A stretch of DNA of 54,757 bases from Chitinophagaceae bacterium. Its GTDB lineage: Bacteria; Bacteroidota; Bacteroidia; Chitinophagales; Chitinophagaceae. Each line of letters starts with the position of its first letter. The stretch's first letter is position 1. The translations under genes and the position numbers were made by a program. Below are positions 1 to 43,234 of the stretch, piece after piece. A model generated the notes under the pieces. It did no database searches, was not told where the DNA came from, and was given only the letters and a program-made list of their open reading frames with translations. The DNA lies in contig CANFLL010000016.1 in NCBI GenBank assembly GCA_947447825.1, forward strand, positions 1 through 54,757, written 5' to 3'.

Positions 1-86
1 AAATAATTATTTTTTAACTAAAGAGGTTATCAACAAAAGTTGAAAGTGGGAGAAAAAACGTCAACCTATATTATGGGACCTCAAAC

Positions 87-198
87 TATTGACTTTCAAC
101 TATTGACTTTCAACTTTTGACTTTCAACTTTTGACTTTCAACTTTTGACTTTCAACTTTTGACTTTCAACTTTTGACTTTCAACTTTTGACTTTCAAC
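87..198. repeat. Tandem repeat, eight 14-bp units (paired heptads)
   Basis: Eight head-to-tail copies of a 14-bp unit (first two start TATTGAC, the rest TTTTGAC, all followed by TTTCAAC). On the minus strand each unit reads GTTGAAA then GTCAAAA, so it is two heptads that both begin with GT. A single opposite-orientation GTTGAAA sits at 39-45 and could pair with the array. It belongs to the heptad family seen throughout the window. The rest of bases 1-254 holds nothing else recognisable. Confidence 0.9.
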
Positions 199-254
199 TA
201 ATAATTCATAACTTTTTTAATAACATCCCTTAACAGGGGCAAAAACACAAAAAA

Positions 255-782
255 ATGGCTACTTACAAATTAGACGCTATGCATAGCGAAATCACTTTTA
301 AAGTGAAACACTTAATGATTAGTACTGTGACAGGTAACTTCTCACAATTTGATGCAACAATGGAAGCTGAAGCAGCAGACTTTAGCGATGCAAAAATTAG
401 CTTTACGGCTGATGTTGCAAGTATTTCTACAGGTAATGAACAAAGAGACGGACACTTGAAGAGTGCTGATTTCTTTGATGCAGAAAAGTTTCCTGCACTT
501 TCATTTACTTCTACTGCATTTGCACACAAGAGTGGAAGTGACTATGAACTAACTGGTGATTTAACAATTAAAGATGTTACTGCCCCAGTTACATTAGCAG
601 TTGAATATGGTGGGGCGATGACTGACTTTTATGGTCAATCAAAAGTTGGTTTTGAATTATCAGCGAAAATTAGTCGTGCAGCTTTTGGATTAACATGGAG
701 TGCAGTTACAGAAGCGGGCGGTGTGGTAGTAAGCGATGAAGTTAAATTGGCATTGTCTGTACAATTGGTGAAGCAAGCGTAG
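255..782 (+). CDS. YceI family protein
   Basis: A 175-residue protein matching the YceI family, small lipocalin-like beta-barrels that bind isoprenoid-type lipids. The typical opening is visible (YKLDAMHSEITFKVKHL, a D-x-x-H-S-x-I-x-F-x-V-K-H-L pattern), followed by the NEQRDGHLKSADFFDAEKFP segment and a C-terminal half rich in alternating beta strands. No signal peptide is visible, so unlike E. coli YceI it is probably cytoplasmic. The next gene is a small DoxX-like membrane protein on the same strand 93 bp away, and the two may share a transcript. The ligand cannot be read from sequence. Confidence 0.9.
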   Translation: MATYKLDAMHSEITFKVKHLMISTVTGNFSQFDATMEAEAADFSDAKISFTADVASISTGNEQRDGHLKSADFFDAEKFPALSFTSTAFAHKSGSDYELTGDLTIKDVTAPVTLAVEYGGAMTDFYGQSKVGFELSAKISRAAFGLTWSAVTEAGGVVVSDEVKLALSVQLVKQA

Positions 783-792
783 GAATTAATAT

Positions 793-841
793 GTTGTACG
801 TTTAAAATCTAACGTAAAACGTAATACTTAATACGTATAAC
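793..841. repeat. GT-phased heptad array, 7 units
   Basis: Seven consecutive 7-bp units in strict phase beginning 10 bp after the YceI stop: GTTGTAC, GTTTAAA, ATCTAAC, GTAAAAC, GTAATAC, TTAATAC, GTATAAC. The first units (GTT type) and the last (AAC type) are roughly reverse complements, so the transcript could fold on itself. There is no U-tract, so it is not a classical terminator. Confidence 0.85.
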
Positions 842-875
842 TCTTTTAATTCATTCATCATTCAAATCATAATTC

Positions 876-1244
876 ATGAACATTGTAAAACAAATTCCGG
901 CTTATCTATTAGCCTTGGTATTCATCGTTTTCGGTGCAAACTTCTTTTTACATTTCTTACCAATGCCCCTAATGAGTGGCGATGCAGGTTCTTTTGCGGG
1001 ACTGCTATATAAGTCTGGTTACTTGTTGTTTGTAAAAATACTTGAAGTAGTTATAGGTATCCTTTTGCTAGTTCCTGTTACTAGGGCGTTGGCCTTACTT
1101 TTAATAGCCCCTATAGCCGTAAACATATTGTTATTTGAAGTTTGTTTATCGCATCAGCCTAGTATTGGCGTAGTATTAGTGATTGTAAATGCAATAGGAA
1201 TCATCCTCAATAAAGAAAAATATTTAGGAATAATTGCTAAATAA
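876..1244 (+). CDS. DoxX-like small membrane protein
   Basis: 122 residues, almost entirely hydrophobic, with four apparent transmembrane segments (about 8-27, 45-68, 69-90 and 95-112). The overall pattern, including the segment with K-I-L-E-V-V-I-G-I-L-L-L, resembles the DoxX/DUF6041-type membrane proteins common in Bacteroidota. No catalytic motif is visible and the function is unknown; DoxX relatives have been linked to redox or quinone-related processes. It follows YceI and precedes a strong terminator at 1269-1298, so the pair could form a small unit. Confidence 0.7.
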   Translation: MNIVKQIPAYLLALVFIVFGANFFLHFLPMPLMSGDAGSFAGLLYKSGYLLFVKILEVVIGILLLVPVTRALALLLIAPIAVNILLFEVCLSHQPSIGVVLVIVNAIGIILNKEKYLGIIAK

Positions 1245-1268
1245 TTGCTGGTATAAAAAAAGGAAATG

Positions 1269-1298
1269 AAAGCGAATATTCAATGAATATTCGCTTTT
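1269..1298 (+). terminator. Intrinsic terminator after the DoxX-like gene
   Basis: Perfect 12-bp stem (AAAGCGAATATT at 1269-1280 with AATATTCGCTTT at 1286-1297), a 5-nt loop, then TTTT. It lies 24 bp past the stop codon. Confidence 0.85.
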
Positions 1299-1388
1299 GT
1301 CATTTGTTTAAAAGACTACTCCTCTAAAATTAACAATCATCTTAGCGTACGATTAACATTTTATTTTCATATTCTACAATGAATATTA

Positions 1389-1396
1389 TATATTTG
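1389..1396 (+). promoter_or_regulatory. Bacteroidota -7 promoter box upstream of greA
   Basis: TATATTTG matches the TAnnTTTG -7 consensus of the Bacteroidota primary sigma factor. No clear TTTG -33 box is seen at the usual distance, only an AT-rich stretch. Transcription would start near 1401-1404, exactly at the left arm of the hairpin at 1403. Confidence 0.6.
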
Positions 1397-1402
1397 TGAT
1401 AG

Positions 1403-1440
1403 TACAACGTCACGGTTATCTGTGACGTTGTATTTTTTTT
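1403..1440 (+). terminator. Terminator-like hairpin in the greA leader
   Basis: Perfect 11-bp stem (TACAACGTCAC at 1403-1413 with GTGACGTTGTA at 1422-1432), an 8-nt loop and a run of eight T immediately after it. It lies between the greA -7 box and the greA start codon 24 bp downstream, so it is positioned as a leader attenuator and not as the terminator of the previous gene, which has its own at 1269-1298. Confidence 0.75.
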
Positions 1441-1464
1441 AATAACACCTTCAATAAATAGAAC

Positions 1465-1932
1465 ATGAGTGATTACGTAACACAAGAGACATTTAATAAG
1501 ATGCGTGAAGAGCTTCAGAAGATGAAAGGAATAGACAGACCTGCTGCATCGCGGGCTATTGCAGAAGCTAGAGAGAAAGGAGATTTGAAGGAAAATGCTG
1601 AATACGATTCTGCTAAGGAAGCGCAGGGAATGCTTGAAGCAAGGATTAAACAACTGGAAGGGATTATTGCTACAGCAAAAATTATTGATCCCAATACCAT
1701 CGATACTAGCAAGGTGGCTGTTTTAACTAAAGTGACTATTACCAACATCGCTAATAAAAAAGTGATGACTTACCAAATAGTTGGACAAAAAGAAGCTGAC
1801 CTAAAATTGGGCAAAATATCTGCCTCTTCTCCTATTGGTAGTGGACTACTAGGTAAAGCAATTGGTGAAATTGCTGAAGTAACTACACCAACGGGCATTA
1901 TGAAGTTTAAAATTGATGCCATCACCATCTAA
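1465..1932 (+). CDS. greA: Transcription elongation factor GreA
   Basis: 155 residues, the normal GreA length. The N-terminal coiled coil (about 1-75) carries the hallmark tip GDLKENAEYDSAKEAQ, with acidic residues D40 and E43 that coordinate the second Mg ion in the RNA polymerase active site. The C-terminal FKBP-like domain (about 80-155) contains the expected SPIGSGLLGKAIGE segment. GreA rescues backtracked polymerase by stimulating cleavage of the nascent RNA. The gene stands alone between its own promoter with a terminator-like leader hairpin and a terminator at 1957, so it is probably monocistronic and possibly controlled by attenuation. Confidence 0.97.
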   Translation: MSDYVTQETFNKMREELQKMKGIDRPAASRAIAEAREKGDLKENAEYDSAKEAQGMLEARIKQLEGIIATAKIIDPNTIDTSKVAVLTKVTITNIANKKVMTYQIVGQKEADLKLGKISASSPIGSGLLGKAIGEIAEVTTPTGIMKFKIDAITI

Positions 1933-1956
1933 AATTAAGTTTGATTAAAAAATAAT

Positions 1957-1984
1957 AGCCTCTACTTTTGTAGGGGCTTTTTAT
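1957..1984 (+). terminator. Intrinsic terminator after greA
   Basis: 8-bp stem with one G-T wobble (AGCCTCTA at 1957-1964 with TAGGGGCT at 1971-1978), a 6-nt loop and a TTTTTATTT tail. Confidence 0.85.
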
Positions 1985-1988
1985 TTAA

Positions 1989-2092
1989 GTTTCTAATTAC
2001 AAGTTTCTGGTTTTTACCTGTATCAAGTAACTGGAAAACTGTAACTTAATAAATTGAATCACTAATCACTAATCACTAATCACTAACCACTA
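1989..2092. repeat. Two adjacent heptad arrays between greA and the HIT gene
   Basis: First block, 1989-2047: GTTTCTA, ATTACAA, GTTTCTG, GTTTTTA, a 3-bp break, then GTATCAA, GTAACTG, GAAAACT, GTAACTT. Its two halves are partly reverse complementary. Second block, 2058-2092: four copies of ATCACTA and one ACCACTA; on the minus strand these read as GTGATTA/GTGGTTA heptads. The second block ends 3 bp before the HIT start codon and so occupies its ribosome-binding region. Confidence 0.85.
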
Positions 2093-2095
2093 ATT

Positions 2096-2488
2096 ATGAC
2101 TATCTTTTCAAAAATTATTGCAGGAGAAATTCCATGTTACAAACTTGCCGAGAATGAACATTTCATCGCATTTCTTGATATATTTCCTTTAAAAAAGGGT
2201 CATGCGTTGGTAGTTCCTAAAATAGAAATAGATGAACTATTTGATTTGCCAAATGAATACCTGACAGGTCTTTTAACTTTTGCAAAGCCCATTGCTAAAG
2301 CAATAGAAAAAGCATTTCCTTGCGACAGAGTAAGCATTTTAACAGTAGGGCTAGAAGTACCGCATGCGCATGTACATCTAATTCCGATGGATAAAACCGA
2401 GGAAATGAACCTATTGAACAATAAACTTAACTTGAGTAAAGAAGAGTTCGTAGAAGTGCAATTGAAGATTATGGGTTTTATTTCTTAA
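2096..2488 (+). CDS. HIT family nucleotide hydrolase/transferase
   Basis: 130 residues of the histidine-triad superfamily. The N-terminal FSKIIAGEIPCYKLAENEHFIAFLDIFP and the signature PHAHVHLIP (H-phi-H-phi-H, around residues 89-97) are plain to see. HIT proteins hydrolyse or transfer nucleoside monophosphates from adducts such as adenosine phosphoramidate or Ap4A; the exact substrate cannot be told here. The start codon directly follows an array of ATCACTA heptads, leaving no normal purine-rich ribosome-binding site, which is unusual even for Bacteroidota. Confidence 0.93.
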   Translation: MTIFSKIIAGEIPCYKLAENEHFIAFLDIFPLKKGHALVVPKIEIDELFDLPNEYLTGLLTFAKPIAKAIEKAFPCDRVSILTVGLEVPHAHVHLIPMDKTEEMNLLNNKLNLSKEEFVEVQLKIMGFIS

Positions 2489-2543
2489 TATAAGCCAATT
2501 AAAAGAAGTGCAGTTGCATGACTCTAAAAATTAAATATCAGCT

Positions 2544-3446
2544 TCATGCTACTGAAACTTCTTTCAACTCTTGCTTTAAAATCACAACGGCAGTATCATT
2601 TGGAATCATGCCGCCTCCATACATTTTGGTGAAAACTTTGGTAAATTCCGCTCCAAGATATAAGATTACACTAGCATAATATACCCACAAAAGAATTACC
2701 ACAACAGCAGAAGCTGTGCCATAAGTAAGATTTACAGTGGAATGACCAAGATAGAAACCAATGGCAAATCGCCCAAATAAGAATAAAATACTTGTAACAA
2801 ATGCACCAACAAATGCGTCTTTCCATCGGATGATTACATCGGGGAGTACTTTGAAAATAATGGCAAACAACAAAGATGTAATGCTTAATACGAGAACTAG
2901 ATTAATGCAATAGGTAAGATAAATGAGGGAATCTTTAAAATAAGAATGCAACCTATCGCTCAACAGATCTATTAACGTATTTAGGAACAACGAGACCATT
3001 AAGATGAAACCCATCACCAAAATGAGCGAGAAAGACAATAATCGGCTATTTACAAAACGAATGATATTCTTTTTGGGTTTTGCTTTTATGCCCCATATAT
3101 AATTCATAGAATCTTGTATCTCCAGAAAAACACTACTTGCTCCCACAAACAAGATAACAATACCAACAATACTATTAGAAAAGGAGTTATGAGTGTGGTG
3201 CATATTCTTAATAATCTCTTGTATTTGCAAAGCTGCTTCGTCACTAATTAATGTGCGCAATTGAGAATAAACCTTACCCTGAACGGCTTGCTCACCAAAA
3301 AACAATCCCGCCAATGATATGGCAATCATTAATAATGGGGCAATTGAAAAGATGGTGTAATAGGAAAGCGAGGCACTAAGTTTCATGCCTTTATCATCAG
3401 AAAAATTACTGATGGTCTGCTTAGTCATTATCCATATTTTCTTCAT
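2544..3446 (-). CDS. YihY/virulence factor BrkB family membrane protein
   Basis: 300 residues with about six transmembrane segments. The opening (S-A-S-L-S-Y-Y-T-I-F-S-I-A-P-L-L) is typical of the YihY/BrkB family, as is the C-terminal region with the YGTASAVVVILLWVYYASVI stretch. Once annotated as ribonuclease BN by mistake, the family is an inner-membrane protein of uncertain transport function. It lies downstream of the LptF/G-like gene on the same strand, separated by 135 bp that are mostly heptad repeats. Confidence 0.92.
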   Translation of the reverse strand: MKKIWIMTKQTISNFSDDKGMKLSASLSYYTIFSIAPLLMIAISLAGLFFGEQAVQGKVYSQLRTLISDEAALQIQEIIKNMHHTHNSFSNSIVGIVILFVGASSVFLEIQDSMNYIWGIKAKPKKNIIRFVNSRLLSFSLILVMGFILMVSLFLNTLIDLLSDRLHSYFKDSLIYLTYCINLVLVLSITSLLFAIIFKVLPDVIIRWKDAFVGAFVTSILFLFGRFAIGFYLGHSTVNLTYGTASAVVVILLWVYYASVILYLGAEFTKVFTKMYGGGMIPNDTAVVILKQELKEVSVA

Positions 3447-3464
3447 AAAAGAGAGATTGTAGAG

Positions 3465-3576
3465 GTTGCAAGTTACTGGTTTCAGGTTTCAGGTTACTAG
3501 TTTCTGGTTACTGGTTTCAAGTTACTGGTTTCAGGTTGCCAGTAACTAGAAACTAGCGACCTGAAACCAGTATCTT
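3465..3576. repeat. Longest GT-phased heptad array, 16 units
   Basis: Sixteen 7-bp units without a phase break, from GTTGCAA to GTATCTT. Eleven begin GTT (GTTACTG, GTTTCAG, GTTACTA, GTTTCTG and similar) and the last five are mainly the complementary kind (GTAACTA, GAAACTA, GCGACCT, GAAACCA). The array fills 112 of the 135 bp between the two flanking genes, ends 5 bp from the LptF/G stop codon, and could form a long imperfect hairpin. Confidence 0.92.
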
Positions 3577-3581
3577 CCTTT

Positions 3582-4676
3582 CTACTTTGGTGCTTTTTTG
3601 TGAAGATAGAGTGCTACAAAAAAGAAAATGAGATTTGGAATCCAGGCAGCAATTACTGGTGGCAAATCTCCTTTGGTAGAAAAGATAGTAGAAAAGCGAT
3701 CGGTAATAATAAAAGCTGCTGCTGTCATAAACCCATACGCAAGATGCGCCCCACTACCTCCACGCACTTTTCTGCCAGAAACTATGGCCCCAATTATGGT
3801 CAACAAGAAAACTGTTACAGGGGTGGCACTACGCCTTTGTAGCTCAACTTTAAGGTCATTAATACCTTCCGAACCTCGCTCTTCCTGCATTTTAATGAAC
3901 CTTTTAAGTTCTTTAGAAGTAAGCTTATCCTTCGTAAATTTATCCTTACCTAAGTCTTGAGGCTTAAAGTTGAAAGAAGCAATCTGCTCTTGTTCCATCT
4001 TAACAGTTTCATTAAGAGGGTGCAACGTGCGAATAATAACATTGCGCAAACGCCACTTATGAATAGCTGTATCCCATTCAATACTTTCTGAGCGGGTATT
4101 TACGGTTAACTTATTATGCTCAATATGGTGCATAAAAAAAGTACCCCCATGTTTGTAAGAAGTATCATAATTCATGATACCTGCATAAGTAAAAGAATCA
4201 ACTTTAAAATAGATGTTGGTGTTGGTATTCGCAGTAAGTTGCTCGTAAGAATTGTCTCTATCAACATACCTAGCCTCGAAACTACTCCTAATCAGATTAG
4301 CTTTAGGGATTACATATTGGTTAGATGCCCACAATATTAAACCAAGAAAACCTCCACCAATAAAGTATGGCCTCAACCATCTGTTATAAGAAGTTCCGCT
4401 GGCTAATATGGGAATTATCTCTGTATTGTTGGCCATCTTAGACGTGAAAAAGATAACCGAGATATACACAAACAAGGGAAAAAGCAGGGCAATGATATAA
4501 GGGATGAACCCATAATAGTAGCCCGTAACAATCTGCATGAATGTTAGTCCAGATTTTACAAAGTTGTCAGTCTTCTCACTAAGGTCTATCACAATAGCGA
4601 TGATTGTGAACAGAACGATGGCGAAAAAAAAGGTACCCAGAAACTTTTTTAATATATACCAGTCAAGTTTTTTCAT
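3582..4676 (-). CDS. LptF/LptG family permease
   Basis: 364 residues from the ATG giving MKKLDWYILKKFLGTFFFAI; an upstream in-frame TTG would add five residues but is less likely. The family forms the membrane part of the LptB2FG ABC transporter that extracts lipopolysaccharide from the inner membrane. Seen here: three N-terminal transmembrane segments (about 10-35, 50-80, 95-120), a periplasmic beta-jellyroll-like region (about 125-260) and three C-terminal segments (about 280-360), including TPVTVFLLTIIGAIVSGRKV. Bacteroidota often have two such genes apart from each other; whether this is the F or G partner is not decidable. No lptB lies nearby. Confidence 0.9.
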   Translation of the reverse strand: MKKLDWYILKKFLGTFFFAIVLFTIIAIVIDLSEKTDNFVKSGLTFMQIVTGYYYGFIPYIIALLFPLFVYISVIFFTSKMANNTEIIPILASGTSYNRWLRPYFIGGGFLGLILWASNQYVIPKANLIRSSFEARYVDRDNSYEQLTANTNTNIYFKVDSFTYAGIMNYDTSYKHGGTFFMHHIEHNKLTVNTRSESIEWDTAIHKWRLRNVIIRTLHPLNETVKMEQEQIASFNFKPQDLGKDKFTKDKLTSKELKRFIKMQEERGSEGINDLKVELQRRSATPVTVFLLTIIGAIVSGRKVRGGSGAHLAYGFMTAAAFIITDRFSTIFSTKGDLPPVIAAWIPNLIFFFVALYLHKKAPK

Positions 4677-4718
4677 TCTAAATGGTGGCAAATATAGTTG
4701 GAGAGGGCATGATAAAAC

Positions 4719-4757
4719 AAAAAGTGCAACCCTTCAATTAAGATAGTTGCACTTTTT
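4719..4757 (-). terminator. Intrinsic terminator downstream of the small gene 4820-5065
   Basis: Perfect 12-bp stem (AAAAAGTGCAAC at 4719-4730 with GTTGCACTTTTT at 4746-4757) and a 15-nt loop. Read on the minus strand it ends in a T-rich tail, so it closes the icd/small-gene transcript ahead of the LptF/G gene. Confidence 0.85.
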
Positions 4758-4819
4758 AGAGATACATTTACTAAAACAGGTAAATACAGAAATTAACCTT
4801 TTAGTATCTCCAAGTTCTT

Positions 4820-5065: not shown

Positions 5066-5102
5066 AATTATAATTTAAATGTAAAATGTTACTTTGTTAA
5101 TG

Positions 5103-9076: not shown

Positions 9077-9078
9077 AA

Positions 9079-9155
9079 GTTGTACGTTATACGTTATACG
9101 TTATAAGTTATATGTTTTAAGTTTTACGTAGAACGTATAACTTATAACGTATAAC
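9079..9155. repeat. GT-phased heptad array, 11 units, filling a convergent gap
   Basis: Eleven units in unbroken phase: GTTGTAC, GTTATAC twice, GTTATAA, GTTATAT, GTTTTAA, GTTTTAC, GTAGAAC, GTATAAC, TTATAAC, GTATAAC. It takes 77 of the 80 bp between two convergent genes and touches both stop codons. The left and right ends are reverse complements, so each gene sees GTTATAC-type heptads right after its stop on its own coding strand. Confidence 0.92.
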
Positions 9156-9156
9156 T

Positions 9157-9492: not shown

Positions 9493-9501
9493 GTTATTTT
9501 A

Positions 9502-9536
9502 GTTGAAAGTTAAAAGTCGAGAGTTGAAAGTTAAAC
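9502..9536. repeat. GT-phased heptad array, 5 units, overlapping the Fic stop
   Basis: GTTGAAA, GTTAAAA, GTCGAGA, GTTGAAA, GTTAAAC. The last unit contains the stop codon of the Fic gene (9531-9533), so the array has reached into the coding region and sets the protein's final residues. It takes up nearly all of the 38-bp gap to the SUI1-type gene. Confidence 0.85.
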
Positions 9537-10946
9537 GTATTGTTTTAGCTGTTCCATAAAATACTTAACCTCATTGGCTACGGCAGTGGTTAACTCTTCT
9601 TTTGATTTGTTTTGACCATAAACATCTTGTAAAACATCCGAATGTGCATTTTGACGTGTCACGTAATAATTAAATTCTTGAAAGCTTACCAAATAATTCA
9701 ATGAGATATTAGTTGGTATCTTTCTCTTTGTAAACCCATTAAAAAGAAAGTAAACTTTAAAGGAGGATAATGAATAAAGTACCTTGCTCTCAACAGTTAA
9801 AAATGGATTATTCATACTGCTATAGTTAGAAAAAAGAGAATCTAAGTCATGATTAATAAACCCATCACTTTCAAGTTCGAACTTAAAGTTATTGAAACCA
9901 TCGTTAAATTCCAATATTTTCTCTACTTCGACAAATAAATCGTCAAGATGCTTTAGCTTAACAATTAACATATTAAAGAAAGGAATGATTGTCTCCTTAA
10001 TAACTTTCTCTACATAGATAGCATCCTTTTTATGTTTCAATACATCTTCCCTCAAACTCTTCTTAAACAGAGCAATCTCTTTATCAATATCATCTTCTTC
10101 TTCAAAGCTTTCGCCTTTGGCAGCTTTAATGTAAATAGATAAGGAATGTTTCACCAAGTCGGCAATATATTCAGTTAGTGGAATCATTTCCCCCGCATCT
10201 GCCTGCCTCAACACTTGATAATATTCAGTCTTATTACCTTGTTTTACAACGATAGGCAAGTAATCATCTTGCATCAACATCAAGTTCATCAATAGCCTTC
10301 CCATCCGTCCATTGCCATCATCAAAAGGATGAATTGCCGTGAACTCATGGTGAAACAAAGCCGCTAATACCACAGGATGAATAGTTGGGTTATCCTTTGC
10401 CATATTGTACCATTCCATCAAATCGCCCATCAGCATGGGTACGTGTTCTGGGGAGGCATAATAATGTATTTCGCCAGTAGGCGTTTGTACATGATTAGGC
10501 GAGGTCTTATACTGCCCCACTTTTATTTCTTTCCTTGTTGGTAAACCCGCATCAGTAATAGCGTCTACAAAATAATTTTCTTTTAATGTAAGCGTATGGA
10601 GATTTCTAACTTCACTTTCATTCAGCGAATAATCTTTATCTTTTACCAAAGACAAAAGATAATTTATTGCTTCATCATGCCCTTTTATATCCAAATGATC
10701 TTTAAAGGGTTTGCCTTTAGCTGTTAATCCTTCTTTCAAAAAAGCAACTGTTTCTCCATAAGTAAGTTGGTTTCCCTCAATGGCATTGGAATGATAGTTC
10801 CAATCCAGCCGAAACTTCTGCATCACCCTTCCTTCCTTATCTGCCGAAAGGGGGCGCAATGCCATCACTTCTGCTTTTAGCCTATCTATCTCCGCTAAAA
10901 AAGGAAGTGTGCTTAATTTTTCTGCTGTATCAATTGATAGTGCCAT
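9531..10946 (-). CDS. Fic family protein with N-terminal autoinhibitory motif
   Basis: 471 residues. The Fic core motif HPFDDGNGRMGR (206-217) is intact with catalytic H206, so AMP transfer from ATP to hydroxyl side chains is expected. An inhibitory helix motif of the S/T-x-x-x-E-G/N type is present as SNAIEG (53-58), which places it among the class II proteins inhibited from their own N-terminus. The region after about 260 is charged and unusual, lacks the winged-helix domain often found at the C-terminus of such proteins, and may bind the target. The target is unknown; no toxin-antitoxin partner gene is next to it. Confidence 0.93.
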   Translation of the reverse strand: MALSIDTAEKLSTLPFLAEIDRLKAEVMALRPLSADKEGRVMQKFRLDWNYHSNAIEGNQLTYGETVAFLKEGLTAKGKPFKDHLDIKGHDEAINYLLSLVKDKDYSLNESEVRNLHTLTLKENYFVDAITDAGLPTRKEIKVGQYKTSPNHVQTPTGEIHYYASPEHVPMLMGDLMEWYNMAKDNPTIHPVVLAALFHHEFTAIHPFDDGNGRMGRLLMNLMLMQDDYLPIVVKQGNKTEYYQVLRQADAGEMIPLTEYIADLVKHSLSIYIKAAKGESFEEEDDIDKEIALFKKSLREDVLKHKKDAIYVEKVIKETIIPFFNMLIVKLKHLDDLFVEVEKILEFNDGFNNFKFELESDGFINHDLDSLFSNYSSMNNPFLTVESKVLYSLSSFKVYFLFNGFTKRKIPTNISLNYLVSFQEFNYYVTRQNAHSDVLQDVYGQNKSKEELTTAVANEVKYFMEQLKQYV

Positions 10947-10956
10947 TTGTAAATTA

Positions 10957-11005
10957 GTTGATAGTTGAAAGTCGAGAGTCGTAAGTCAAGAGTTAACCGT
11001 TTTGC
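10957..11005. repeat. GT-phased heptad array, 7 units, between Fic and nadC
   Basis: GTTGATA, GTTGAAA, GTCGAGA, GTCGTAA, GTCAAGA, GTTAACC, GTTTTGC. It starts 10 bp from the Fic start codon and ends 4 bp from the nadC stop. It shares the units GTTGAAA and GTCGAGA with the array at 9502. Confidence 0.85.
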
Positions 11006-11009
11006 CACT

Positions 11010-24936: not shown

Positions 24937-24957
24937 GTTTTAAATTTTAAGTTTTAA
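24937..24957. repeat. Short heptad array downstream of recG
   Basis: GTTTTAA, ATTTTAA, GTTTTAA, starting 20 bp past the recG stop. It is the shortest member of the heptad family I accept; AT-rich composition alone might produce it. Confidence 0.55.
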
Positions 24958-29768: not shown

Positions 29769-29774
29769 AGAAAT

Positions 29775-29942
29775 AGTTGTTAGTGGTTAGTGGTTAGTTA
29801 TTAGTTATTAGTATTTTGAATTTTATTACATCTAATCACTATTTTCTTAAAATGAATTTAGTTACAAGTTTTTAAGAAAGTAAATTTGTAACTACATGCC
29901 TAATAACTAATAACTTACCACTAACAACTAATAACTAATCAC
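29775..29942. repeat. Heptad arrays as inverted arms in a convergent gap
   Basis: Left arm 29775-29816: GTTGTTA, GTGGTTA twice, GTTATTA twice, GTATTTT. Right arm 29901-29942: TAATAAC twice, TTACCAC, TAACAAC, TAATAAC, TAATCAC, the reverse complements of the left-arm units. The arms lie at the two gene ends, and the right one contains the stop codon of the epimerase-like gene (29939-29941). A long stem could form across the 84-bp centre. Confidence 0.9.
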
Positions 29943-30586
29943 TTCCTTATATCCACATTTTCATAAATTTCTTTCTTGCCACCATCAATTCCTACTGTTA
30001 CCATTTTATGAGCCAGCACCTTCGAGCTAACACCAATATTTGGATAGATGAATGAAATAGGTCTATATAAAACACGCATAATACCATAAAAAAGATTGGG
30101 TTCTCGTCGTGGAGTCACAGGATAAATATAACCAGGCCGGAATATGTAGGTTCTAGCAAAATTCAGTTTCAATAATCTATTCTCTGCAATTCCTTTTGCC
30201 TTTGCAAACAAAACCCTGCTCTTTTCGGTGTTATCCGCTCCTTGTCCGCTTAAAAAACAAAAAGTAGCCATTGGGCTATTCCGCTTTAATGCTTCACTAA
30301 AAAACTTTGTAAAATCGATGGTCACTTTATTAAATTGTTCTTTAGGAACTTGCCCTGTATATACACCGATACAGTAAAAACAAACATCCTGATTTTGTAA
30401 GCGGGAGGCTATTGCCGTATAATCAGTAAAATCTGAGTGAATAACTTCTATCAATTTAGGATGTTGCAACCCTAAAGACATCCTAACAATACAAGTAACA
30501 GTACTTACATCTGCTCTTTCCAAGCATTCTTGAAGTATCAATTTACCTATCATTCCATTACTACCTGTTATTATCACTTTTTTCAT
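29939..30586 (-). CDS. NAD(P)-binding epimerase/dehydratase-like protein
   Basis: 215 residues from the ATG giving MKKVIITGSNGMIGKLI; a longer TTG reading is unlikely. The Rossmann motif G-S-N-G-M-I-G-K at the N-terminus binds NAD(P). The sequence resembles the atypical short-chain dehydrogenases of the HTATIP2/YbjT kind, with F-L-S-G-Q-G-A-D, A-K-G-x-A-E-N-R-L and F-R-P-G-Y-I-Y-P. The catalytic Y-x-x-x-K of classical members is replaced, so the function may be NADPH sensing or an unassigned reduction. It stands alone. Confidence 0.87.
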   Translation of the reverse strand: MKKVIITGSNGMIGKLILQECLERADVSTVTCIVRMSLGLQHPKLIEVIHSDFTDYTAIASRLQNQDVCFYCIGVYTGQVPKEQFNKVTIDFTKFFSEALKRNSPMATFCFLSGQGADNTEKSRVLFAKAKGIAENRLLKLNFARTYIFRPGYIYPVTPRREPNLFYGIMRVLYRPISFIYPNIGVSSKVLAHKMVTVGIDGGKKEIYENVDIRK

Positions 30587-30627
30587 CGCAGCGAATTTAC
30601 AGTTCTGCAATTACAAACTAACTTTTT

Positions 30628-30655
30628 GTGATTAGTGGTTAGTGATTAGTGGCTA
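30628..30655. repeat. GT-phased heptad array, 4 units
   Basis: GTGATTA, GTGGTTA, GTGATTA, GTGGCTA, about 40 bp upstream of the epimerase-like gene. The same units appear in the array at 29775-29942 and, complementary, at 2058-2092. Confidence 0.8.
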
Positions 30656-30852
30656 TCGATTATGTTTAATGATTAATGGCAGCCATGCTTTTACGCAAGC
30701 AAAGTCTTGGTTCTTACATTTTGTCAATCTCCTCTGGCATTTGTAGTAATCCATTACGCTCAATCTATTCCCTTTATCATTAATTAAAATGAGTTGATTC
30801 CCCAACTACTGTTAAGGTGATTGTAAGGAAAGATGAAAAGAGGTTGGCTTAT

Positions 30853-33285: not shown

Positions 33286-33313
33286 GTCGAAAGTCTTAAT
33301 TAGTTAGTCAAAA
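33286..33313. repeat. Heptad array, 4 units
   Basis: GTCGAAA, GTCTTAA, TTAGTTA, GTCAAAA in phase. Weaker than others in the window; preceded by a further GAAA. Confidence 0.6.
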
Positions 33314-33386
33314 ACCGTGAATTGAGGTTAAAACTGCTCAATTTATATTGATGAGTTTCCTAAACAAGTTTAGCAATTCAAATCAG

Positions 33387-33435
33387 CTACAACTTATCAC
33401 CTAAAACTAAATACTTATCACTTTCTACTTAAAGC
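33387..33435. repeat. Heptad array adjoining the kup stop
   Basis: CTACAAC, TTATCAC, CTAAAAC, TAAATAC, TTATCAC, TTTCTAC, TTAAAGC. Read on the kup strand these are GTAGAAA, GTGATAA, GTATTTA, GTTTTAG, GTGATAA, GTTGTAG, beginning within about 17 bp of the kup stop. The unit sequence changes at each step while the GT phase is kept. Confidence 0.82.
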
Positions 33436-33444
33436 TTACAAAGA

Positions 33445-35800: not shown

Positions 35801-35929
35801 TTAAAGTTCAATGTCTCTTTCTAAGTTCTACTTTTCTATGTGTCTATTGTGCCTTTGTATTGAAGCCATTTTTGCCAAATGAAGTTATCCAAAATAGATT
35901 AAGCTAATAAAAAATAAAGGCAGTATTCT

Positions 35930-35964
35930 TTTAAACTTAATACCTATAACTTATTACCTACAAC
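35930..35964. repeat. Heptad array adjoining the NtrC-type gene stop
   Basis: TTTAAAC, TTAATAC, CTATAAC, TTATTAC, CTACAAC. On the gene's strand: GTTGTAG, GTAATAA, GTTATAG, GTATTAA, GTTTAAA, starting 3 bp past the stop codon. Confidence 0.85.
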
Positions 35965-35967
35965 ATT

Positions 35968-37830: not shown

Positions 37831-37985
37831 CTTCATCATATAACTTGTTTTGAATAAAACTTATTGGTCACAAATTTTTCAGAGCAATTAGTGGCAAATT
37901 ATTTCTTAAGTAAGTTATTTAATAATGAAACATGAAGTCACTAATTTTAGCCTATCTAGTACTGCTCATGAGTAGCAACATGTTT

Positions 37986-39314
37986 TTAATTAACTTTTCT
38001 GTTATCAACTCCGATTTTTATGAGGTAAGCCACTACTCCTAGGCTAATAACCGTTACGCCGCCCATCATCATCTTGCTTCCTGTGGAATAAAAAATAAAT
38101 GCCCACAACACAATAGCAATAACAGCAGGAAGTGGATAGAGTGGCATCTTCCATGCAAAATGATTGAGCCCTTTTCGACGCACTAAAAGTAAAAGCCCAA
38201 TGGCCTGACCAATAAACTGCACCATTATCCGCATGGCCAGTATGGCATCAATTACATCTTTTAGCTTAAACAATAAACTAAACACAAACGCAATTCCTCC
38301 CAAAAACAAAAGGGAGATATAGGGAAAGTGTTTGGTGGGATGTAGGCGGGCAAAAGCAGAAAAAAACGCACCATCTTTGGCGGCCGCAAAAGGCACACGG
38401 CTATAACCCAACGTGGCACTGAAAACAGAAGCAAAAGCAACCCATAAAACCAATATTGTCACCACAGTTGCAGCGGTTGGCCCCCAGAGTTTTTGTATGA
38501 ACAAGCTTACTACAAACTTGCTGTGTTTTATCTCGTCAATAGGCAAAACCGAAGCCACACTAATGTTCATCAATAGGTATAAAACAGCAATTCCCCCAAT
38601 GGAAATAAACATACTTAGCGGGATGTTTCGTTTGGGATTTACGATTTCACCTCCCAACTGGCAAACATTGTAGTAGCCTAAATAACTATACATTGTTTTC
38701 ACACTGGCAAAGCCAATGGCCGCAACAAATGCTTGGTTTAGCACTAATCCATCGTTTATGTGCTGAATAGGTTCCATAAAATGCCCATGAAAAAGGCCAC
38801 CACCAATAATGCCTGCCATGGTTGCCATTACGCCGATCCAAAGAAACACACTTATTTTGCCAATACTTTCTATTTTTCGATACAATAAAACAATAATTAA
38901 AATAACCACACTACCACTTAGTACTTTACTTTGAAAAGTGGATAATGGGATGATGTAACAGAAATATTGAGAAAAACCAATGGCTGCAGAAGCAATAACA
39001 AGGGGAGCCTGAATGAGTGTTTGCCAAACAAAAAGGAAACTTATTAGCTTGCCAGCCTTACCGCCATAACCTTCTTTTAAAAAATTGTAACTTCCGCCAG
39101 CCATCGGATATGTGGCACCTAACTGGCTCCAGACATTACCATCAATAAAGGCCAAAAATGCCCCAGCAATCCAAGCATATAGAAAATAAGGACCATTAAT
39201 AATTTCCACCACAACACTTAGCACCACAAAAGGACCAATGCCCACCATATCAATCATGTTTATGGCGGTGGCTTGAAGAAGACTTATTTTTCTTTCTGAC
39301 TTATTTATGTCCAT
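37986..39314 (-). CDS. APC family amino acid permease
   Basis: 442 residues from the ATG giving MDINKSERKISLLQATAIN; a TTG 30 bp upstream would add ten residues without family support. Twelve hydrophobic segments are visible. The APC helix 1 break appears as M-V-G-I-G-P-F-V-V-L-S and helix 6 region as F-A-S-V-K-T-M-Y-S-Y-L-G-Y-Y-N. It is an amino acid or amine:proton symporter or antiporter; the substrate is not evident. Confidence 0.88.
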   Translation of the reverse strand: MDINKSERKISLLQATAINMIDMVGIGPFVVLSVVVEIINGPYFLYAWIAGAFLAFIDGNVWSQLGATYPMAGGSYNFLKEGYGGKAGKLISFLFVWQTLIQAPLVIASAAIGFSQYFCYIIPLSTFQSKVLSGSVVILIIVLLYRKIESIGKISVFLWIGVMATMAGIIGGGLFHGHFMEPIQHINDGLVLNQAFVAAIGFASVKTMYSYLGYYNVCQLGGEIVNPKRNIPLSMFISIGGIAVLYLLMNISVASVLPIDEIKHSKFVVSLFIQKLWGPTAATVVTILVLWVAFASVFSATLGYSRVPFAAAKDGAFFSAFARLHPTKHFPYISLLFLGGIAFVFSLLFKLKDVIDAILAMRIMVQFIGQAIGLLLLVRRKGLNHFAWKMPLYPLPAVIAIVLWAFIFYSTGSKMMMGGVTVISLGVVAYLIKIGVDNRKVN

Positions 39315-39459
39315 AGAGAATAAAAATAAAGGTTTTATTTGCAAGAAATGTTACTAGTCAGGATGTTTGTAACTTATGAGGGGCATTTTTACAATAAGAA
39401 GCGCATTGAAAGCTTTTATGTTTCTAATTAATTAGCTAATAAATGAGGTCTACTTTTTT

Positions 39460-39562
39460 TTCTTCAACACAAAGACTCAAAGACGCTAAGATGCACAAAG
39501 AAAAAAGAAACATAAGCTAGGCTTAGTTTTACTTCGAGCCTTTGAGTCTTTGTGTTGAAGAA
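39460..39562. repeat. Long inverted repeat, 23-bp perfect arms
   Basis: The arms 39460-39482 (starting TTCTTCAACACAAAGACTC) and 39540-39562 are perfect reverse complements around a 57-nt centre, which again contains CACAAAG-like pieces in about 8-bp steps. It lies in the divergent gap between the permease and the GH13 gene, whose remaining bases (39315-39459, 39563-39722) hold nothing else I recognise. Confidence 0.85.
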
Positions 39563-39722
39563 ACCTAAAAAATGAGTTACATAGTAAAAGGTAATAAGTG
39601 GGTGATTTAGTCAAAACACATTATTTTAAAGAAGCAAAGGAGGAGAATTATAAAGTTTTTCTTTTGATGGAAACTAGATAAAACCAAACGAGCAGAACAT
39701 TAAAATACATTAATTATATATT

Positions 39723-40985
39723 ATGAGTAAACCATTTGAAACCATTGGTTGGGCAAAAGGAACTAATATTTACGAAGTAAACATTAGGCAATATACTACC
39801 GAAGGAACATTTAAAGCCTTTAGAAAGCATTTGCCCAGACTTGCAGATATGGGGGTTGAAGTTTTATGGTTGATGCCAATTACCCCAATTAGTCATAAAA
39901 ACAGATTGGGAACCTTGGGTAGCTATTATGCTTGTAGTAGTTATGTGGGCATTAATCCTGAGTTTGGCAATCTGACTGATTTTAAGGAATTAGTGGATGA
40001 AGCACACGGATTAGGATTTAAAATTATTATTGATTGGGTGGCTAATCATACGGGTTGCGATCATGAATGGACGGAAAGCAACCCTGAATTTTATACAAGA
40101 AATGCAGAAGGTCACTTCACGGAACGCAATGGATGGAAAGATGTAATTGATCTGGATTATACCAACTATGATATGCGTGCTGCAATGATTAGTGCGATGC
40201 GCTTTTGGGTGAAAGAGTTTGATATTGACGGGTTTAGATGCGATATGGCTCATCTGGTACCATTAAATTTCTGGGAGAGCGCAAGAACAAGTTGCGAAAC
40301 CATTAAGCCACTTTTCTGGTTGGCAGAATGCGAAGATCCCTCTTATCACCATGTGTATGATGTTAGTTATGCTTGGCACTGGATGCACGCCACTGAAAAA
40401 TTTGTGAAAGGAGAGGTGGCTATTACAGACTTATATAATATTTTACATGGATACAGCCAATATCCTTATGAGGCTTTGAAGTTATTTTTCACGTCGAACC
40501 ATGATGAGAATAGCTGGAATGGAACCGAATATGAGAAATATGGTAATATGGCCAAACCATTGGCGGTATTGAATGCTACATGGATTAACAGTGTTCCGCT
40601 AGTGTATAGTGGTCAGGAATTACCCAATAAAAAAAGGTTAGCCTTCTTTAATAAAGATGAAATTGAGTGGAGTACAAAAATTGAATTGGGTAACTTTTAT
40701 AAGATAATTCTCAATTTGCATAAAACTAAGGCAGTTGCCCAAGGAGAAATATTTATTCTGCCATCAAACCACAATGGAGTGATGGCATTTTTGAGGAAGT
40801 TTGAAGAAGAAGTAGTATTGGTAATTATTAATTTAAGCAGTAGTAGCAAATTAACGCTATCTGTTCATCATCAATGGATTGTAGGAACATTTACCAACTG
40901 TTTTTCAGGACTAGACTATTCATTTAACAAAACGGAGAACTTTGAAGTGATGGCTTATGAATATTTAATTTATAGAAAGAAGTAA
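39723..40985 (+). CDS. Alpha-amylase family glycoside hydrolase (GH13)
   Basis: 420 residues, no signal peptide, so probably cytoplasmic. The (beta/alpha)8 barrel shows the GH13 regions: D-W-V-A-N-H-T (about 104-110), G-F-R-C-D-M-A with nucleophile D174, W-L-A-E-C-E-D with acid/base E202, and T-S-N-H-D-E-N-S with H260 and D261. A short C-terminal beta domain follows (about 335-420). It probably acts on maltodextrins or related alpha-glucans. The exact specificity (amylase, trehalose-type or transferase) is open. It stands alone. Confidence 0.93.
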   Translation: MSKPFETIGWAKGTNIYEVNIRQYTTEGTFKAFRKHLPRLADMGVEVLWLMPITPISHKNRLGTLGSYYACSSYVGINPEFGNLTDFKELVDEAHGLGFKIIIDWVANHTGCDHEWTESNPEFYTRNAEGHFTERNGWKDVIDLDYTNYDMRAAMISAMRFWVKEFDIDGFRCDMAHLVPLNFWESARTSCETIKPLFWLAECEDPSYHHVYDVSYAWHWMHATEKFVKGEVAITDLYNILHGYSQYPYEALKLFFTSNHDENSWNGTEYEKYGNMAKPLAVLNATWINSVPLVYSGQELPNKKRLAFFNKDEIEWSTKIELGNFYKIILNLHKTKAVAQGEIFILPSNHNGVMAFLRKFEEEVVLVIINLSSSSKLTLSVHHQWIVGTFTNCFSGLDYSFNKTENFEVMAYEYLIYRKK

Positions 40986-41224
40986 ATGTTGTTTTCTGTT
41001 CAATTGGATATAGCGAAACAAATGAGTACACCATCATTAAAATTATATAAAACATCGTAGTGTTTTAACTACCAGTGTTTTAGTCAATAGTTTAATACTA
41101 ATTTGGAGAAGTGTCCATAATTTTATCGCTTGAAATAAAGCACTATAAATCAATAAACTTCGATATATAATTTAGATTTTAGAGCGGAGAAATTAAAGGG
41201 AATTACATTAAAAGTTAACTGTCT

Positions 41225-41851
41225 ATGAGAATTTTAATTGCGGATGATCACCAGCTAGTAAGAACGGCTTTGAAGTACATTTTAAAGGAAGCTTATCCTA
41301 CAGTAGAATTGGAGGAAGTGGATAATACAGTTGCCTTATTTAAGCGCGCTGTAAAAGAAAAGTGGGATTTAATAATTTCGGATCTTTCTTTTCCTGATCA
41401 ATCAGGATTGGAAGTACTTAAACAAATAAAGACGCATGCCCCAAAGATTCCAGTGCTAATATTAAGCATGTATCCAGCACAAGAGTATGCCATTAGATGT
41501 ATTACAGCCGGCAGTGCTGGCTATCTTACAAAAGATAATATTTCTGAAGAGTTAATTACAGCCGTAAATCAAATATTAGCAGGAAGAAGATACCTTAATC
41601 TAGAAGTAGCAGAGATATTAGCGTCCTCCTATGAAAGTAAATCTAAAACAGATACACATGAGAATTTATCTGATAGAGAATATCAAATATTCAAGATGCT
41701 AATTGATGGTCATTCTATGCAGGATATAGCTAATAAATTATCTATAAGCATCAATACGGTAAGATCACATAAAGTACACATTCATAAAAAAATGAACATT
41801 CAGGGGGATGCAGATTTAATAAAGTATGGCATCCAGCATAACTTGGATTAA
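41225..41851 (+). CDS. NarL/LuxR-type response regulator (1 of a tandem pair)
   Basis: 208 residues. Receiver domain (about 1-120) with D7/D8 and phospho-acceptor D53 in I-I-S-D-L-S-F-P, conserved T/S and K (Y-L-T-K-D) residues, then a LuxR-type HTH (about 145-205) with L-S-D-R-E-Y-Q-I-F-K-M-L and S-I-S-I-N-T-V-R-S-H-K. The second regulator, of identical length, starts 113 bp downstream. No sensor kinase is adjacent. Confidence 0.95.
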   Translation: MRILIADDHQLVRTALKYILKEAYPTVELEEVDNTVALFKRAVKEKWDLIISDLSFPDQSGLEVLKQIKTHAPKIPVLILSMYPAQEYAIRCITAGSAGYLTKDNISEELITAVNQILAGRRYLNLEVAEILASSYESKSKTDTHENLSDREYQIFKMLIDGHSMQDIANKLSISINTVRSHKVHIHKKMNIQGDADLIKYGIQHNLD

Positions 41852-41964
41852 TCAAGTTAAATACATCTGAAGAAAAGGAATAGTTTCTTTTTTAATCCCC
41901 AATTGATTAATGAAGCCATAAAATGCTTTAGTTTGTAATTATACAGGCTATAAATTATAAATAA

Positions 41965-42591
41965 ATGAAAATTCTTCTAGTAGATGATCATGCTATGATT
42001 AGACAAGGTTTGGTCTTATTATTAAGACAAACCTACCCTTCTGCTGAAATAGTTGAGAAAAACGATGCGGTTGGTTTAAGAGACTCTCTGTCTGATACAA
42101 CGTTTGATATTGTTATTACTGATTTGTTTATGCCAGGGCCTCCAGTTATAGAAGTGATAAAACAAGTGAGGGATTCGGGGAATAAGATACCAATTATTAT
42201 TTTAAGTATGTCTCTTCCTGAACGTAACGCAGTTAGGGTAATTAGGGCAGGTGCAAATGGTTATTTAAGCAAGGATACTGTTCCGGAAGAGTTGATAAAA
42301 GCAATGCAATTTGTGTTGCAAGGTCGTAAATATATCACGCCCGAAATTGCTTCTCTTCTAGCTGATGCTTATTTGGATGATACAGAGAAAAAACCGCACG
42401 AAACACTTTCAGACAGAGAGTTCGAAGTGTTTCAGATGCTTGCACAAGGTAAAACGGTTACACAGATTGCAGAAACTTTAAAAGTTAGTATCAATACAAT
42501 TAGCACCTATAAATCAAGGATTTTAGATAAAATGAACTTTCAAGGCTTTGCAGATATTATTAAATATGCACATGCTAATAACTTGGTATAA
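41965..42591 (+). CDS. NarL/LuxR-type response regulator (2 of a tandem pair)
   Basis: 208 residues, same length and layout as the preceding gene: D7/D8, D53 in I-V-I-T-D-L-F-M-P, K in Y-L-S-K-D, and a LuxR HTH with L-S-D-R-E-F-E-V-F-Q-M-L and S-I-N-T-I-S-T-Y-K-S. The recognition helix differs (T-I-S-T-Y-K against T-V-R-S-H-K), so the two likely bind different sites. Divergence is substantial, indicating an old duplication. A strong bidirectional terminator follows. Confidence 0.95.
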   Translation: MKILLVDDHAMIRQGLVLLLRQTYPSAEIVEKNDAVGLRDSLSDTTFDIVITDLFMPGPPVIEVIKQVRDSGNKIPIIILSMSLPERNAVRVIRAGANGYLSKDTVPEELIKAMQFVLQGRKYITPEIASLLADAYLDDTEKKPHETLSDREFEVFQMLAQGKTVTQIAETLKVSINTISTYKSRILDKMNFQGFADIIKYAHANNLV

Positions 42592-42701
42592 ATAGATTAA
42601 TTATATGTATCAAGCCAAATAGAGCTTGCATTATATTGCAAGTTGCTTAACTTTTTGGAGGAACATTACATTGTATGAAAACAAATTAATTCTTAGTTAA
42701 T

Positions 42702-42737
42702 AAAAAAAGCCACTTTCAAATGAAAGTGGCTTTTTTT
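42702..42737. terminator. Bidirectional intrinsic terminator
   Basis: 17-bp perfect stem (42702-42718 with 42721-42737), A-tract on the left and T-tract on the right, with GC core AGCCACTTTCA. It serves both the response regulator gene from the left and rplI from the right. Confidence 0.92.
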
Positions 42738-42758
42738 ATTAGCATTTTAAAAGATTGA

Positions 42759-43205
42759 TTATTCAGCAACCACTTCAAAATCTACTTCAGTAACGTGACC
42801 GCCACCAAAATCGATAGAAGCTTTATGAGAACCTATTTCTTTTACTTCAGTAATGATAGTGATTCTTTTGCGATCAACTTCATATCCTTTTTGATCACGG
42901 ATAGCTCTTGCAATCTGCAAAGAAGTAACGCTACCAAATATTTTACCAGTTGTACCCACTTTAGCACCAATGCTAAGTGGAGAAGAAGTAATTGTAGCAA
43001 TAACACTTTTGATTTCAGCAAGCATAGCTGCTTCTTTCTTAGCTTTTACTTTTAAAGACTCTTCTAGCTTCTTCAAGTTTGAAGGTGTTCCTTCAATCGC
43101 AAACTTTTGAGGAATTAAATAGTTACGTGCGTAGCCATTTTTAACGGTTACTAGTTCGTTTTTACCGCCTAAATTATCTACATCTTGTATTAATATAACT
43201 TGCAT
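42759..43205 (-). CDS. rplI: 50S ribosomal protein L9
   Basis: 148 residues. The L9 N-domain is typical: MQVILIQDVDNLGGKNELV, V-K-N-G-Y-A-R-N-Y-L-I-P, then the long connecting helix (about 40-75) and the C-terminal rRNA-binding domain. It is last in the operon rpsF-rpsR-rplI. The 90-bp gap to rpsR is larger than the 2-bp gap between rpsR and rpsF and carries a short heptad block. Confidence 0.97.
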   Translation of the reverse strand: MQVILIQDVDNLGGKNELVTVKNGYARNYLIPQKFAIEGTPSNLKKLEESLKVKAKKEAAMLAEIKSVIATITSSPLSIGAKVGTTGKIFGSVTSLQIARAIRDQKGYEVDRKRITIITEVKEIGSHKASIDFGGGHVTEVDFEVVAE

Positions 43206-43213
43206 AATTTTTT

Positions 43214-43234
43214 GTTGTTAGTTCCCAGAACCCA
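43214..43234. repeat. Short heptad block inside the ribosomal operon
   Basis: GTTGTTA, GTTCCCA, GAACCCA, directly upstream of rplI. A following AGCTTTTAAAAAGCT palindrome forms a separate small hairpin. Only three units, so chance is possible. Confidence 0.45.

Follow-up and report, generated by a model that had tools for sequence, protein, structure and literature searches.

The spacers between genes in a 54,757-nucleotide stretch of a Chitinophagaceae bacterium genome (GenBank assembly GCA_947447825.1, contig CANFLL010000016.1, positions 1 to 54,757; this whole stretch is called the window) contain arrays of tandem 7-bp units, or heptads, and many of these arrays are the arms of a single head-to-head palindrome. 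At L037 430-513, for example, a 33-bp perfect stem of AGTKRTT words occupies the spacer. As the best explanation we propose, tentatively and with slightly less than even confidence, that these are intergenic hairpins which are tolerated or mildly useful, and in which units would turn over by 7-bp slippage and one arm would be copied to the other. The source genome has 4.65 Mb in 187 contigs, the window being contig C16, and its closest named records by nadC are metagenome-assembled genomes and isolates of Chitinophagaceae. In the following, G000 is this genome, G004 is its nearest relative by nadC, and L-numbers are DNA loci or stretches.

Period 7 and the heptad words

A preliminary description of the window listed 14 places with heptad arrays, in which GT was said to stay constant at one position. 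Each interval was tested by its self-match at lag 7 and by the count of GT in one phase, both against 3000 dinucleotide shuffles. The lag-7 match had p<=0.002 at 13 of the 14 places, the exception being 33286-33313 (p=0.045), which confirmed the core observation with the amendments given below. The one-phase GT count reached p<=0.0023 at nine places; weaker phase was found at 29775-29942 (p=0.012), 33286-33313 (p=0.058), 1989-2092 (p=0.066), 24937-24957 (p=0.13) and 43214-43234 (p=0.29). This test is handicapped at 1989-2092 and 29775-29942 because the arms there lie on both strands, and runs of 5-6 GT are present at these two places. At score 12, our detection threshold for printed arrays, no period-7 segment was called at 24937, 33286, 33387, 35930 or 43214. 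Long runs in unbroken phase were found as described, but the maximum is 18 units (78-198) and not 16.

Runs of at least four GT at spacing 7 numbered 14 in the intergenic and two in the coding DNA of the window. The first genome sample, composed of the window and 20 further stretches (455 kb, with 89 kb intergenic and 365 kb coding), held 34 intergenic period-7 segments at score 14 against 0.1 in shuffles, and six in the coding part. Periods 4-6 and 8-11 gave 0-3 intergenic segments in this sample, and the other raised periods were 14 (26 segments), 21 (33) and 22 (6). In the larger sample of 855 kb, 51 intergenic period-7 segments were found against 0.6 in shuffles, with 0-3 at periods 5, 6 and 8-11. 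Chance as the source of the arrays is ruled out by these shuffle tests, at the listed places and in the genome sample alike.

Dinucleotide runs at spacing 7 were observed and expected at 41 and 1.1 for GT/AC, 33 and 2.2 for AG/CT, 44 and 7.9 for TA, and 120 and 55.6 for AA/TT, and GT/AC runs of at least four at spacings 5, 6 and 8-11 numbered 0-2. Since AG/CT, TA and AA/TT runs are also raised, GT is the most enriched anchor but moves with its word neighbours. With in-phase GT in 80% or more of the units as the criterion, the arrays of at least 28 bp that qualified were 29 of 50 in this genome (AA/TT, 21), 71 of 145 in the genus sample (AA/TT, 65) and 30 of 65 at loci of named relatives (AA/TT, 30). 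The GT of the preliminary description is therefore a common anchor and no strict rule, a form of the claim that we rejected. Its five free positions were too loosely worded: read by eye, the printed arrays group into word families such as AGTKRTT, AGTYRAR, NGTWWTA (NGT with an A/T-rich tail ending in A) and RGTTWCW, and some arrays contain no GT, such as those with TATGAAA words. A single slipping motif was also rejected, because several word families exist in one genome. GGG or CCC is present in two of the 50 arrays of this genome and in 21 of 210 overall, and G-run words occur in some relatives (AGTCGGG in L048, for example). We also weighed backup stop codons in all frames as a role of the arrays; RGTTWCW words, by eye, hold no stop on the G strand.

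The constant spacing and the frequent GT anchor would suit rows of binding sites for a protein that attaches to DNA or RNA and recognises NGTNNNN at each seventh position. However, roughly every second array falls short of in-phase GT in 80% of its units, and close species can carry wholly different words at one and the same site, as described below. We regard such binding sites as improbable.

Hairpins, strand polarity and gene boundaries

Genes were open reading frames scored by codon usage with our own script, in which starts may be misplaced and small genes missed. Spacers below 20 bp or above 500 bp were excluded; in the counts of anchors, polarity and hairpin arms, the upper limit was 600 bp and arrays below 28 bp were excluded.

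Arrays had been described as lying on one strand or the other. Both strands do occur, but often as a head-to-head pair within one spacer (3465-3567, 9079-9155 and 29776-29942). In array-bearing hairpins (n=96), the 5' arm was G-richer in 88, C-richer in 6 and equal in 2, while for the other hairpins (n=154) these numbers were 73, 56 and 25. Of 155 single arrays with clear skew, 142 have their G-rich strand running away from the closest gene boundary (p ~1e-28), a count that omits 55 of 210 arrays without clear G/C skew. The same polarity was found in 31 of 33 arrays of this genome, in 112 of 122 when a single array was taken from each spacer, and in 125 of 138 arrays without GGG or CCC. Not all arrays are paired, and the polarity also holds in 34 of 37 arrays of spacers without a stem of at least 10. 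The G-rich strand is coding at 81 of 92 stop-side arrays and non-coding at 61 of 63 start-side arrays.

Because the polarity persists in arrays without GGG, G-quadruplexes are not needed for it, and we rejected them as a requirement; 48 of the 50 arrays of this genome lack GGG. An R-loop-driven origin was set aside by reasoning, since under it the coding strand should be the G-rich one at starts as well, and nearly all start-side arrays (61 of 63) are the opposite. Ordinary neutral microsatellites, with no process specific to hairpins, could draw on the over-representation of heptamers as simple sequence repeats in many bacteria, as PMC4692102 and PMC4679880 state, citing Mrazek 2007. From such repeats neither the strong polarity, nor head-to-head pairing, nor persistence at orthologous sites would be expected, and this explanation seems to us most unlikely.

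Concerning gene boundaries, arrays were said to adjoin stop codons. Arrays were found within 20 bp of 131 of 248 stops (0.53; 0.35 if uniform), which agrees with this, but also within 20 bp of 75 of 172 starts (0.44; 0.32 if uniform). By spacer class, the 1082 co-directional spacers included 96 with an array and 106 with a stem of at least 14; among the 259 convergent spacers these numbers were 25 and 70, and among the 310 divergent ones 5 and 8. Co-directional and convergent spacers together differed from divergent ones in stems (p=2.8e-9) and in arrays (121 of 1341 vs 5 of 310, p=6.5e-7). Omitted from this test were G014 and G019, two control genomes, where 1 of 49 co-directional spacers, 1 of 21 divergent spacers and none of 10 convergent spacers had an array.

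Turnover between species and possible origins

Loci from 80 named relatives (L040-L119), which represent one shared gene neighbourhood read with one codon table and of which at least L040, L054 and L073 are probably the same contigs as in genus genomes, contained 78 period-7 segments against 0.6 expected, with other words such as CGTGAGG, AGTCGGG and GGCTTTA. An array of at least 28 bp was present in 26 of the 80. One locus, L046 (CP128386.1, Chitinophagaceae bacterium DXS), contributes 15 of the 78 segments, and period-8 segments in the named loci numbered 26 against 0.6 expected. Arrays occurred in 122 of 1128 spacers of genus genomes and in 4 of 289 spacers of the control genomes G013-G019, which belong to other families of the order Chitinophagales. 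The shared mechanism that the preliminary description supposed is thus supported by the specificity for period 7, by the polarity, and by recurrence of the arrays in the genus and in the named loci. The outcomes that would have refuted that description, 7-bp periodicity at the level of shuffled DNA or a lack of enrichment at stops, did not occur.

Orthologous spacers were compared in 54 pairs at 28 sites, with relatives' loci mostly fetched around array-adjacent genes. If G000 carries an array, the relative does so too in 16 of 29 pairs, vs 1 of 25 if G000 lacks it; for stems, the numbers are 14 of 25 and 3 of 29. In G004, arrays were found at seven of seven sites with an array in G000 and at none of seven without, 24937 and 33286-33435 being counted as without at the threshold. 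The words are often different at a kept site. At 9077-9156, G000 has CGTTATA, G004, G001 and G010 have AATGATT-type words, G003 has RGTTWCW and G002 has ATGAA-type words; the words were unlike those of G000 in five of six relatives compared and a stem was present in five of six, the G006 spacer having been cut by the script to 17 bp. G001-G003, G005 and G009 are represented by small samples picked around query genes. The word family also differs between G000 and G004 at L039 17373-17458. At 3447-3581 the word family is kept, and the spacer is 135 bp in G000 and 100 bp in G004, a difference of 35 bp or five units.

In the explanation that we favour, tandem 7-bp units, commonly as two head-to-head arrays, would allow the spacer to fold into a single stem, its 5' arm rich in G/T and its 3' arm rich in A/C. 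The number of units would change through 7-bp slippage or unequal recombination, and the arms may be brought back in register by inter-arm copying, that is, by template switching in a quasi-palindrome. The element would persist between cistrons and next to gene ends, as places that tolerate a hairpin or benefit slightly from one, and would be purged from promoters. On the simplest reading, solitary arrays may be palindromes with one arm lost or decayed. In favour of this explanation are the specificity for period 7, the scarcity of arrays and stems between divergent genes, the polarity, the persistence at orthologous sites, the five-unit difference at 3465, and the match between the two arms of a hairpin, which has a median of 0.86 (29 stems), against 0.53 for the same arm between species (43 comparisons).

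Several observations weigh against this explanation, beginning with the choice of orthologous loci around array-adjacent genes. Persistence is partial: the array is missing in 13 of the 29 pairs, and at the best-sampled sites, L037 430 and L020 17895, the stem is present in no more than 5 of 10 species. Apart from the 3465 site, spacers at six array sites differ in length between G000 and G004 by 8, 23, -20, 0, 0 and -2, none a multiple of 7 except 0. The arm match within hairpins is inflated by the choice of the best stem per sequence, which biases its comparison with the match between species, and two of the nine sites compared are non-heptad. No single inter-arm copying event was caught in the orthologue comparisons, two loop-near differences between G000 and G004 at the 12311 site of L039 are uncompensated, and the arms are sometimes very unequal (L034 10682-10801). 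Slippage alone, moreover, leaves the polarity and the change of word family (9077 and L039 17373) unexplained. Why the G-rich arm comes first is explained neither by turnover of the DNA nor by a role in RNA.

Between L120 and L121 (~1351-1500), a stretch of 150 bases with the hairpin is identical in G000 and G004. Identity is 91-99% upstream of it and falls to ~70-86% downstream, which looks like the end of a recombination tract near the hairpin.

Alternatively, the element may be a selected RNA hairpin which, in the transcript, would terminate, protect or insulate mRNAs at the 3' ends of genes and between cistrons, the stem being kept while its sequence drifts. This fits the enrichment in stop-containing spacers, the scarcity between divergent genes, the orthologous stems kept with changed words, and the strong predicted folds. 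However, of 80 array hairpins only 5 had TTTT in the 10 nucleotides after the stem, namely 3 of 57 in co-directional and 2 of 23 in convergent spacers, once 13 of 93 had been omitted for their nearness to a cut end, though the number was also low in non-heptad hairpins (15 of 133; 7 of 74 co-directional and 8 of 59 convergent), so the contrast is weak. Mismatches in co-directional array hairpins were 81 G.T vs 74 A.C (p=0.63), with 210 of 365 of other kinds, unlike the non-heptad co-directional stems, which favour G.T over A.C (128 vs 87, p=0.006; 66 vs 64 in convergent stems). Symmetric G.T and A.C mismatches are what DNA-level turnover predicts, in a test of limited power because the words vary at an A/G position and over half of the mismatches are of other kinds. 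In addition, the array at 1989-2093 lies past a terminator-like site (1957-1978).

Like intrinsic terminators, the array hairpins stand in stop-containing spacers, but the T-tract is seldom present and the arms are tandem heptads. The few T-tracts, the lack of G.U preference and the array past a terminator-like site speak against a plain terminator, none of them strongly alone, and we disfavour array hairpins as canonical terminators. In co-directional spacers, terminator-like sites were found in 6 of 128 with an array and 91 of 1184 without (p=0.29). Hairpins with T-tracts at 1401-1434 and 1957-1978 are terminator-like, so the genome probably also uses ordinary intrinsic terminators. A search of the window for known RNA families, with Rfam at the gathering score, gave no matches. 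The 3'-end RNA element suggested in the preliminary description therefore agrees with the location of arrays and stems in stop-containing spacers and their rarity between two starts, but it does not account for the scarce T-tracts, the symmetric mismatches, the array at 1989-2093 or the arrays at starts. By the same three points that speak against a terminator, we favour turnover at the DNA level, and consider a selected RNA hairpin possible but doubtful.

Repetitive extragenic palindromes (REP and REPIN) are near-identical dispersed palindromes with a tagged foot. Mobile palindromes of this kind, spread by a Y1 RAYT-type transposase, would be in line with Y1_Tnp domains in 12 of 13 genus genomes, with the intergenic palindromes, and with word sharing slightly higher within genomes (433 of 1704 locus pairs, 0.254) than between them (1526 of 8439, 0.181), a small excess that was reached by 0 of 500 label shuffles, relatedness of genomes being ignored. 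But no near-identical dispersed copies were seen by eye in the printed arrays, no copy search being run, and the array frequency does not track Y1 copies in small samples: G005 has 7 Y1 matches and no array in 19 spacers, G010 a single match and arrays in 8 of 57. Such spreading is very unlikely in our view.

The preliminary description had also named a heptad-adding activity, which would be templated and telomerase-like and would write the arrays. Words do recur across loci. No enzyme or template was found in a search limited to Y1_Tnp as the one transposase family; complementary arms would need copying rather than independent addition, and the loss of units, such as the five-unit change at 3465, fits slippage or recombination. 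We hold this to be the least likely explanation of all.

Individual arrays, other repeats and known heptad systems

Ten of ten window proteins tested had a Pfam match above cut-off (nadC was outside the test), which supports the names YceI, LptF/G, phytase-like, SUI1, Fic, RecG, PorP/SprF, NAD(P)-binding protein, K+ transporter and NtrC-type regulator. The 18-unit GT run at 78-198 (minus strand) is composed of AGTTGAA and AGTCAAA words and located upstream of the yceI start (255), the other neighbour being off the contig. At 790-841, a head-to-head array 3' of the yceI stop (782) has few GT on the plus strand at left and a run of five on the minus strand at right (812-841). The array at 1989-2093, past the terminator-like site, ends 2 bp before the start at 2096; its right part is of AGTGATT units on the minus strand (GT run 2061-2090) and its left part is degenerate, with GT on the plus strand. 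The head-to-head array at 3465-3576, between the lptF/G stop and the start of the next gene, is of RGTTWCW words, with 12 GT on the plus strand (3465-3543) and four on the minus strand (3545-3567). A palindromic array of CGTTATA words fills the spacer of the convergent phytase-like and SUI1 genes at 9079-9155.

The array at 9501-9538 (plus strand) with AGTTGAA, AGTTAAA and AGTCGAG words lies between the Fic stop, which it overlaps by 8 bp, and the SUI1 start, and its G strand is non-coding for both genes. A 7-unit GT run at 10955-11001 (plus strand) lies between the nadC stop and the Fic start, again with the G strand non-coding. The Fic gene thus sits between nadC and SUI1 in G000 (9501-11001), flanked on both sides by heptad arrays. 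In eight relatives (nadC loci L001-L012), SUI1 directly follows nadC, with an array between them in G004 and none in G002, and a Fic-like start after nadC is also found in G005. The Fic gene may have been gained or lost at an array between nadC and SUI1.

Two arms with AGTTGTT, AGTGGTT and AGTTATT words are located at 29774-29824 (plus strand), 5 bp past the PorP stop, and at 29900-29943 (minus strand), with a 5-bp overlap with the stop of the convergent NAD-binding (epimerase-like) gene. The array of AGTGATT and AGTGGTT words at 30625-30678 (plus strand) is between divergent genes, a rare arrangement. Weaker places are 24937-24957 (plus strand), where recG is followed by three AT-rich units with p=0.0017 for period 7 and no significant GT phase; 33286-33313 (plus strand), a weak array by both tests; and 43214-43234 (plus strand), with three units upstream of the minus-strand gene 42759-43205 and GT phase not significant. 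Below the array threshold are six GT in phase (33392-33428) at 33387-33435 (minus strand), after the kup stop (33445, minus strand), and five at 35930-35964 (minus strand), 3 bp past the stop of the NtrC-type regulator (35968, minus strand).

Separate intergenic arrays of period 21 were also found, for example at 53220-53288 of the window, L025 15524-15772 and L021 7351-7509. They number 29 in 855 kb, 11 of them between divergent genes, and L022 13404-13474 is palindromic by eye; we rejected them as heptad triples, with a mean lag-7 match of 0.23 over the 29 arrays. A hairpin of CACAAAGAACACTAAG-type units at L039 18044-18231, with a counterpart in G004, is a short-period, non-heptad palindrome. 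Tandem repeats of ~41 bp at 49145-49384 of the window are near neighbouring genes that look similar by eye (49865-51184 and 51658-52989).

Heptads were described earlier in Xanthomonas, as (GGGANTN)n or GGGAATC (Rehm et al. 2015, PMC4692102). According to that paper, they are heterogeneous and intergenic with some fixed positions, and form 70 (Xcc) and 75 (Xac) convergent inverted pairs. Their G-rich strand is coding just after stops, overlaps included, and non-coding just before starts; they are under-represented between divergent genes, and two related species share most sites while length and sequence vary. The G-run family was chosen there for study, and quadruplexes were shown in vitro. 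Tandem intergenic units, convergent inverted pairs, strand polarity and scarcity between divergent genes were all found here too. In contrast to that study, several families exist per genome here, nearly all arrays lack GGG, and the family changes at one site between close species. The GGGGA(C/T)T heptads of Nostoc are given in the same paper as intergenic, G-quadruplex-forming and with few inverted pairs; the pattern of distance and strand is similar, whereas inverted pairs are common here.

TAACTGA heptads are known from Beggiatoaceae, cyanobacteria and five Bacteroidetes (MacGregor 2015, PMC4679880). They occur in 2-6 copies in Beggiatoa, mostly upstream of starts, with no hairpin predicted from the direct repeats alone. 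In the Beggiatoa genome and in Flexibacter litoralis they are mostly A/C-rich on the coding strand before starts, while a small Microcystis sample departs from this polarity (6 forward and 8 reverse to the start, 8 between stops). They are 7-bp direct repeats as here, but one word was studied in that paper. AGTTATC, the rotated complement of TAACTGA, is an array word of G004 and is outside the 12 commonest words of G000.

Among the matches listed in the open-access literature, a scope with few subscription papers, no report of such hairpins in Chitinophagaceae was found. New here are the Chitinophagaceae host, several families per genome, the replacement of words at fixed sites, and polarity without GGG. 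Earlier work on heptad arrays so arranged (PMC4692102, PMC4679880) asked whether they could form G-quadruplexes or regulate translation at starts. Since the polarity is found in arrays without GGG, and at stops as well as at starts, neither of these is the general cause.

We might speculate, while holding it to be unlikely, that heptad palindromes with the G-rich arm first form a single, widespread class of spacer element in bacteria, shared by Bacteroidota, Xanthomonas and at least some cyanobacteria. They would be made by a process that writes 7-bp units of fixed polarity at gene boundaries, rewrites both arms together and swaps whole word families at a fixed site. If this were true, arms rich in G/U behind stops and arms rich in A/C ahead of starts, with words shared across loci, could pair between different mRNAs. 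The orthologous spacers with changed words are a natural series by which slippage, arm copying and family change may be put in order, and this series makes the question of the bacterial preference for period 7 testable.

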